NCBI GenBank assembly: GCA_903813345.2
Contig: CAIIXF020000002.1
Location: 34,924,109 to 34,988,108, forward strand
Length of the DNA stretch: 64,000 nt
Source: Owenia fusiformis
Lineage: Eukaryota; Annelida; Polychaeta; Sabellida; Oweniidae
Direction of reading: 5' to 3'
Shown: one piece after another, positions 20,101 through 23,100 of the stretch
Numbering within the stretch: the first letter of the stretch is position 1
Layout: each line of letters starts with the position of its first letter
Position numbers and translations under genes: made by a program
The notes under the pieces: model-generated
The model's database searches: none
What the model saw: the letters and a program-made list of their open reading frames with translations, nothing else
Told to the model about the DNA's origin: nothing

Positions 20101-23100
20101 ACCTTACTGGCTTTATGCCGATACTTTTTCTAAATGTTTGATGTTTTACTTTGTTGTTAATTATGCTTATAAAATAATCATATTGCCGGAGGTTGCAGAC
20201 CCCAAAAAATCACGATCGATAGTCTTGGAGTTGCTTATGCTACATGTTTTTAGGCGGTATACATATGGAGTGAAGATGTACATAGCCATGATTTGATAAG
20301 AATTGGTCGACTTACTGACACAACATCTTGTAGTTTCTCAAAATGAAGATTGTTGTTGTCATAGTAACCTAAGTCCAGTTTCGTTATCACAATTATTGAG
20401 CATCACTTCGTTTTAGAATTCAAAATTAGACATTTACAAGAAAATGTGGACAGTCATGAACACCTCAAGCGACGTATTCGTCCCAAACACTCAGGCTGGA
20501 GTTGACAAAGTCAGAAAATCAAAGGGAAAATATGCGTTTCTATTGGAGTCCTCAATGAACGACTACCACAACCAAAGGAAACCCTGCAATACGATGATTG
20601 TCGGTGGCAATCTAGACGATAAAGGATATGGCATTGCAACGCCATTAAACTCTAATCTGAGGTAATTTCAGATATGGCACTGTTTATTTGAAATTGAAAC
20701 AAATGCGATATGTTTCAGTTTCAAACATGTTGTACTTTAATTTTTCTTTTGCAGCTTTATGAAACAAATTTGTCCATTCCAGTGCAATAAAGACATCTCC
20801 AAAGGGAGTAAATTTGCACTGAATGGTATTAATATTGTTTCATAATAAAACACACTCTACACCTCAAACGGATTTCTCCGTAAACTACTGCATGTATCTT
20901 CCAATTCTAATTATTGTGAAAATCTTATTTGCAGAATTCAAAAATAAGCGTTTATGAGCAAATGTGGAGCTTTATGGTGGCTGCCAAGCCACCTGTATTT
21001 AAAATTAGTGAAACAGAAGGCGTTAAAACAGTGCGTGAGTCGAAAGGGAAATACGCTTTTCTGTTAGAGTCTACCATGAATGAATATCACAACCAAAGAA
21101 AACCTTGTAATACTATGAAAGCCGGTGATAATATTGACTCTAAAGGGTATGGTATTGCAACACCTATGGGGTCTTCCTTAAGGTAAGAGGCATGGTATAT
21201 GTCTCTGCGCATGCGCAATTAATAGTGCCTTAGCGTGTTGTATCAAAATGTGCATTGTACCGTAGCTACAGTAACGTTTGTACCGTAAATGAACGCTTAA
21301 GTACCTTGATATTGTCCGTAGCAGTAACTGATGATGCGAAGGCTGATGACCACTAGCAAATTGCTAAAATGTGCTGCATTGCTTTGCATGCGAGGTAAAT
21401 TTATTGTGTCCGCACAATATTAATGTGAAACCATGTGTGGTCATTGTCAAATGTCGCAACACGAGCCCCATATTCAAGACACGAGTATATCCCTATAGGT
21501 CACAATATCAAGTATTCAGTCACTACACTTTGCTCGATATGTAGCTCCGTAGTGGTAGCAAGTTCTAGCTAGTAACCTTAGAGAAGTTGTGTCCCTATTT
21601 ATACACCATTGCTCATATGTATTTCAAATTTTCACCAAACGTGTCAACTAAAGTAACTGTAATGTAAGCACTGTACCAATTACAATAACCCAGCCTTCAG
21701 AATATAGTATTTTGAAGTAGATTTAAAGTTCAAAATACTCGAGTTGATTTTCGGGGAAAATTTGTGAAGTCAATGGTTCATTAAAAACTTCCATATATAT
21801 GAGCAGGGGTGTATGTATAGCTATTCTTGTGAAATTAGAATATATTGTTATACTTATATATTGTTATTGATCAATTGTTTTTTCATCAAAGATGATCTTA
21901 TGATAATAAAATACTGTGTTCATCGATGCAACTAAAACATAACTGATGATGCATCATAGTAACAGTGAAACTTAGTAAACTACATTGTATATTTTATATA
22001 CATGACATATATTATTCTATTGAATAAACCAGTCCAGTGGGTCAAATAAAATATTAGAAGTTATTGGAGACAGTGATAAATTCTAATCGAAGCCATGACA
22101 CCAATTGTCATCAAATTCTAGAACTTCTCACTTTACTTATTTTACCTAATTCACATTTTAGAGAAAAAATCAGTTTAGCGGTGCTGCAGCTTCGAGAAAA
22201 AGGAGTATTAGCCAAATTGCAGAAGAAATGGTGGTTTGACAAAGGAGAGTGTGGCCATTCCGACGTGAAGGTATTGCTTAGTTTACACATTACAGTGAGA
22301 TAGCATATATTTTCGTATATTTGGGTTGCACAGATGGTAGTTTATTAGAATAGAATATAATCAAATAAGTGGTGATTTAAAGTACAATATCAATGTGAAT
22401 AATGGTGACAAATGTTTATTATATTTTAGGGCTCAACCCAAAATGCATTGACGCTAAGCAATGTTGCTGGGATATTCTACATACTAATAGGGGGCTTGGG
22501 TCTTTCGATGGTCGTCTCACTACTCGAGTTCTTCTATAAATCAAAAACAGAGGCTCGGAAACGAAAGGTATGCAATTACTCAACGGTCTGGCATTACAAA
22601 TAAATATTAATTTGGTAAAGAGAAGGGTTTTCTAATGCTTTTACTGTTGTTTCATTTCTGTAAGATAGTGCAGTATGTGTACGGTGTACGACGTATACGA
22701 TACTGTTGTTTCATTTCTGTAAGATAGTGCAGTGTGTGTACGGTGTGTACGACGTATACGATAAATGTATAAAGTAGTCTCTATAATAAATTGGCTATGA
22801 ACTCACAATTTTTTCACTTGGCACCTTTTGAGGTGGATCCCGGCTATGGCATTAATGGTTGAGAAATAGGGATCGAAACCAGCCATAGTTTTCTCCAGAT
22901 GACCATTGTGAATTGTTGTGTTTTATGGATTATGATGACGGCTTTGTGAACGGGTGTTGACCCTTGAATTGCGTATGGACTTTCAGACTGGATTTTATCT
23001 ATCCCACATCATTTGAGACTGAATACTCTATCTTTTATGAGCACTAGTATCTACAACTATTTTTGATGTTATGAGTATTGGCTATCAATTTTTCTTCAAC

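Follow-up and report, generated by a model that had tools for sequence, protein, structure and literature searches.

Two pairs of putative mutually exclusive exons, one of them in the S2 ligand-binding segment, in an AMPA-type receptor gene of Owenia fusiformis

Two AMPA-type receptor genes and a tandem pair of S2 exons

Does an AMPA-type receptor gene of Owenia fusiformis carry two alternative versions of its S2 ligand-binding segment outside the flip/flop exon, and must exactly one of them be used? This question was raised by a preliminary description of a 64-kb stretch of DNA, analyzed here as a whole and referred to as the window. We observed two AMPA-type receptor genes in the window, in tandem and both on the + strand: gene 1 (2025-24130), which holds the exon pair in question, and gene 2 (approximately 42-55 kb), located downstream of gene 1 and absent from the preliminary description. 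The gene 1 model starts with the exon at 2025-2180 and ends with the stop codon near 24130, the start codon and the signal-peptide exon lying outside the model. The best PDB match of the gene 1 protein was 9rnh_A (845 bits), with an end-to-end AMPA receptor alignment over residues 33-859, and the best 60 of the 376 PDB matches were named GluA1-4 or plain "Glutamate receptor". The Pfam domains ANF_receptor, Lig_chan-Glu_bd and Lig_chan were detected (155 bits for the protein with exons 8b and 13b, 146 bits for that with exons 8a and 13a), and the architecture comprises the ATD, S1, the pore and S2, with the SYTANLAAF gate. Closest to GluA1-4 over its length and organized in the same domains, gene 1 has the sequence features of an AMPA receptor subunit, in agreement with the AMPA-type identity proposed earlier. 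All four gene 1 models containing one exon from each of the two pairs presented below were read in one uninterrupted frame, 880 or 881 residues long depending on the S2 exon. Elsewhere in the window, large minisatellite arrays with 43-nt and about 74-nt units were observed inside gene 1 (8225-10080) and just upstream of gene 2 (36242-41694). A Mariner-like element was found at 33550-34850; its termini carry long inverted repeats, and its transposase is read in two frames that overlap (33674-34171 and 34128-34673).

In gene 1, M3 (SYTANLAAF) and the start of S2 are encoded by exon 12 (18873-19071, + strand), placed by its splice sites and the gene model. Downstream lie exon 13a (20417-20661, 245 nt) and exon 13b (20935-21182, 248 nt), on the same strand and separated by a 273-nt intron (20662-20934). 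Both exons have AG/GT ends, are entered in phase 0 and are left in phase 2. The best PDB match was the GluA2 entry 5fth for 13a (E 5.8e-29) and the GluA4 entry 3en3 for 13b (E 4.9e-33), and the two exons correspond, within the AMPA receptor ligand-binding domain, to one and the same segment. The coordinates, lengths and phases given in the preliminary description were all reproduced, and its assignment of both copies to the same S2 segment, ligand-binding Glu included, agrees with these matches. In the gene 1 model, the frame stayed open through to the terminal stop with 13a alone or with 13b alone. The direct join of 13a to 13b translates as NLRIQK-stop, which contains the R-I-Q-K-stop read previously, and this double inclusion stops 211 codons short of the end with further junctions downstream. 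The frame was also broken, as expected from the earlier reading, when both exons were skipped, the model then stopping 106 codons short of the end. Single use of 13a or 13b would therefore be enforced, because double inclusion and double skipping both give a premature stop, and transcripts carrying both or neither would presumably enter nonsense-mediated decay. Adjacent, homologous, similar in length and equal in phases, the two exons form a cluster whose joint use is barred by the frame. Thus, the earlier claim of tandem alternative S2 exons, exactly one of which is usable, holds strongly at the level of frame and sequence, and what we infer from it is their use in transcripts. The pair is real and very probably composed of two functional alternative exons.

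The exon at the flip/flop position, exon 14 (22162-22270, + strand), is delimited by its splice sites. By tblastn over the window, only exon 14 itself and its gene 2 counterpart were recovered below E 0.1, and no second copy of the flip/flop-position exon was found in the window for either gene 1 or gene 2, which supports the previous statement that this exon is single. In a flip/flop arrangement the duplicated exon would be the S2-end exon with WWYDKGECG; in gene 1 that exon is not the duplicated one. As a control, we considered the gene 2 counterpart S2 exon (51062-51309, + strand), recognized by homology to 13a and 13b, for which tblastn and frame self-comparison found no second full copy in the window. 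The 3' end of this gene 2 exon and its donor are amplified as a 62-nt tandem repeat (51254-53003, 28.7 copies), in which the donor string AAGGTAAGC is present 25 times.

A second exon pair and the question of exclusive use

By comparing the + strand frames of the window with each other (stop-to-stop segments of at least 30 residues, tandem-repeat arrays excluded), we observed another pair of exons in gene 1, which is absent from the preliminary description. Exons 8a (12875-13078) and 8b (13123-13326) are each 204 nt long, in phase 0/0, with splice sites of their own, and their products are 35% identical over 69 columns (E about 2e-12). They lie between the exons at 12432-12605 and 15475-15582, all on the + strand, the flanking exons being placed by their splice sites. 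Their assignment to the ATD relies on the full-length alignment, Pfam and position: 8b aligns with the GluA4 N-terminal domain inside the full-length alignment. Searched alone against the PDB, 8b had no match at E up to 1 and 8a matched no glutamate receptor chain, its sole match being an unrelated chain (E 1.1). As a further control, a probable gene 2 counterpart of exon 8, in one copy, was placed at 46755-46940 (+ strand) by position and splice sites, with a weak match to 8b (E 0.43).

With both 8a and 8b, either or neither, the frame stays open in the gene 1 model. Because double inclusion and double skipping both stay in frame, the exclusivity of this pair would depend on spacing alone. 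The spacer between 8a and 8b (13079-13122) measures 44 nt, the next smallest of the 15 listed gene 1 introns being 159 nt, and it is presumably too small for removal by splicing. A donor-to-branch-point distance below 50 bp is a recognized cause of mutual exclusion (PMC5740500). Adjacent, homologous and equal in length and phases, 8a and 8b form a cluster with a gap under this 50-bp limit, and it is probably the 44-nt spacing, and not the frame, that keeps them exclusive.

Taken together, these features make it highly likely, as far as sequence can tell, that gene 1 is a functional AMPA-type receptor gene whose two exon clusters are both mutually exclusive, giving 2x2 isoforms. In the S2 cluster, 13a and 13b would alternate, the reading frame enforcing the use of one of the two; in the N-terminal cluster, 8a and 8b would alternate, the 44-nt gap blocking 8a-to-8b splicing. 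Four subunits could thus be produced from one gene via two exon choices, and they would differ in parts that shape receptor assembly and response. We infer the splicing choice, the decay of misspliced transcripts, the steric exclusion and the functional effect from the organization of the locus. Exclusion may nevertheless be less strict: joined 13a and 13b could act as a deliberate off switch, through the stop and nonsense-mediated decay, and joined 8a and 8b could give a longer N-terminal domain. The premature stop of the 13a-13b join, with its further junctions downstream, and the in-frame 8a-8b combination are compatible with such uses, and flop-flip double junctions reach 5-12% in human GRIA2-4 (PMC8257547). 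However, splicing of 8a to 8b is unlikely across a 44-nt spacer under the spacing criterion (PMC5740500), and we consider this relaxed use improbable compared with strict exclusion in both clusters.

Splice sites, constraint and RNA structure of the S2 pair

Splice sites were scored with weight matrices built from the 21 acceptors and 21 donors of both genes, each site being left out in turn. Exon 13a had an acceptor of 2.4 bits (third lowest of 21) and a donor of 5.8 bits (sixth lowest of 21), compared to 9.7 bits (sixth highest) and 12.3 bits (second highest) for exon 13b. Because its splice sites are strong and those of 13a weak, 13b is probably the default exon, and 13a would be the regulated choice. 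The same values could also suggest that one S2 copy, most probably 13a, has long been silent as a duplicate, rarely or never spliced in. Its acceptor is weak and its donor middling-weak, and a stronger acceptor-like AG sits between 13a and 13b, before 20755, with 10.5 bits, level with the best acceptor of the region.

By contrast, the coding sequences do not resemble those of a silent copy. The proteins encoded by 13a and 13b share 61.2% identity across 80 aligned residues and differ by 31 substitutions plus one gap in 82 residues; synonymous sites are saturated (pS 0.77), nonsynonymous difference is only 25% (pN 0.254), and no stop was observed within 81 codons. Given such saturation at synonymous sites, combined with constraint on the protein, neither exon looks like a relic. 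The columns departing from GluA2 in one copy alone are comparable in number (11 for 13a, 8 for 13b), which suggests a similar constraint on both. In a simple neutral simulation, whose resampling rate of 0.5 per base was our own choice, none of 2000 copies remained open while retaining 61% identity. As for the decay that the preliminary description expected in an unused copy, both copies are constrained and free of stops; the splice sites of 13a are weaker, yet they have been kept and, like those of 8a, 8b and 13b, lie within the range of the other scored sites. We therefore regard a silent 13a as quite unlikely, and two functional S2 exons remain the preferred reading.

Among the codons for residues shared by 13a and 13b (Met and Trp excluded), 24 of 45 differ synonymously, in both parts of the exon, and there is therefore no sign of recent conversion between the two. 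Each exon is nearer GluA2 (66.2% for 13a, 69.1% for 13b) than the two are to each other (61.2%); the GluA2 row was that of 1m5d, which reads F instead of the Y found in the KYAYLLES of 5fth, and the values with Y would be 65.0% and 67.9%. A five-sequence tree gave 48% support to the split setting 13a and 13b apart from the rest, which lends little weight to any order between the S2 duplication and the gene 1/gene 2 split. In a scan based on the aligned 13a, 13b and gene 2 S2 exons, no relatives were found among 133 pattern matches in the viral collection viral_contigs, nor among 61 matches in the prokaryotic collection genome_contigs, which says little about animals. Invertebrate assemblies often contain haplotypes that were collapsed or duplicated, but an assembly artefact placing two alleles in tandem received no support here and is scarcely credible, since protein identity between the copies is just 61%, synonymous sites are saturated, the divergence is far past that of alleles, and two independent pairs occur within the same gene.

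The intron between 13a and 13b is highly structured and folds better than its shuffled versions (z -4.94, 0 of 200). Among 104 scanned segments covering 10.2-24.1 kb, its fold score ranked third, behind the segments starting at 13600 (the top score) and at 20672, the latter overlapping it, and near-equal scores were obtained at 23664 and 17000. Since folding is comparable at other loci, the hairpins of this intron may be no more than ordinary inverted repeats; by blastn, the rest of the window contained no full-length copy of them. At 20750-20850, a long hairpin whose ends are TTATGAAACAA/TTGTTTCATAA comes directly after the acceptor-like site (exon start 20755); this arrangement may represent a decoy site or a small element made of inverted repeats. 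An inverted repeat was also observed at 13700-13915, in the intron after 8b, its arms translating to similar peptides on opposite strands. Long-range pairing was assessed for 45 pairs of regions, the best being 20217-20416 with 21383-21582 (z -4.06 against 40 block shuffles; z -3.25, 1 of 300, with dinucleotide shuffles). We did not retain RNA structure as the selector between 13a and 13b: the best pairing is unconvincing after 45 tests, and it would loop out the two exons together instead of selecting one of them.

Predicted effects of the S2 choice and comparison with known systems

The differences between the two S2 versions are concentrated at the start of the segment, where the first 34 codons of the 81 aligned contain 21 of the 31 substitutions (p 0.00015 by permutation). 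The 10-residue segment holding the ligand-binding Glu, the glutamate-contacting E705 in GluA2 numbering, is identical in 13a and 13b. Because both versions retain this Glu, both should bind glutamate, and the switch leaves the primary glutamate contact unswapped. Position 729, a dimer interface site, is Asp in 13a and Ser in 13b and in GluA2. At the cleft-lip position 686, Thr is found in 13a, as in GluA2, Glu in 13b and Asn in gene 2; position 402 is Thr in gene 1 (window position 16249) and Gln in gene 2 (48959), compared to Glu in vertebrates. In GluA2, T686 bonds E402 across the cleft (PMC3979659). The 402-686 pairs are thus E-T in GluA2, T-E in gene 1 with 13b, T-T in gene 1 with 13a and Q-N in gene 2. 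The first third of the segment carries most of the exchange, residue 686 included, and the Thr402-Glu686 pair of 13b may represent the vertebrate E402-T686 latch with its two residues swapped. The choice between 13a and 13b could alter affinity or gating. Because Glu686 would face Thr402 in 13b, in place of the Thr686 of 13a, the 13b isoform is predicted to hold the closed cleft better than 13a, with a higher apparent affinity and a slower deactivation. The two exons would provide a natural experiment on lobe 2, in which the ligand contacts are the same and the cleft lip and surface are different.

More tentatively, gene 1 might carry an ancient two-site switch. The N-terminal choice would set the assembly partners and the S2 choice would flip the latch between Thr402-Glu686 and Thr402-Thr686, spacing and frame enforcing the two choices; the S2 duplication would be approximately as old as the gene 1/gene 2 split, or older, and would form an independent counterpart of flip/flop. 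We consider this extended scenario possible but rather doubtful. More generally, a gene in which the flip/flop exon stays single and both its predecessor and an N-terminal exon are duplicated would show that splice switches able to tune receptors arose in animals on more than one occasion, and at different places in the clamshell.

The preliminary description knew of no account of the 13a/13b pair, and we found none in the open-access literature; most subscription papers and all genome-annotation databases lay outside this search, and automatic gene models containing the two isoforms may exist. The accessible part of an oyster AMPA-type receptor paper mentions no such exon pair (PMC10642201), nor does that of the flip/flop study (PMC8257547), and the main text of PMC6307864 contains no splicing, exon or flip terms. 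In Aplysia, the available sections of one study describe a lineage-specific multiplication of protostome AMPA-type genes and name splice variants for Grin1/Grin2 and none for AMPA genes (PMC5225553). As in the Aplysia and oyster families, the window contains more than one AMPA-type gene.

Flip/flop, the textbook AMPA receptor splice switch, concerns a 115-nt exon at the S2 end that encodes 38 residues with 8-10 differences (PMC8257547). As in the vertebrate GRIA1-4 genes described in that source, gene 1 has an exclusive exon pair in the S2 of an AMPA receptor, with a frame broken by double inclusion or double skipping (PMC8257547). In addition, the R/G site of vertebrates lies 2 nt upstream of the donor in the exon preceding flip/flop, and 13a and 13b end here in AG at the same distance. 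Unlike flip/flop, the flip/flop exon of gene 1 is single, and it is the preceding 245/248-nt exon, together with an N-terminal exon, that has been duplicated instead. A two-site organization is known from the insect RDL GABA receptor, in which exons 3 (a/b) and 6 (c/d) give four isoforms with altered agonist potency (PMC4019635). Similarly, gene 1 would have two separate alternative-exon sites in one ligand-gated channel gene, with four isoforms possible. However, RDL belongs to the unrelated Cys-loop family, and the isoforms of gene 1 and their effects are predictions from sequence. Finally, both frame-breaking double inclusion and a donor-branch-point spacing below 50 bp are listed among the mechanisms of mutual exclusion, 13a/13b fitting the former and 8a/8b the latter (PMC5740500). 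Unlike the general class of mutually exclusive exons, one and the same gene here appears to use a different mechanism for each of its clusters.
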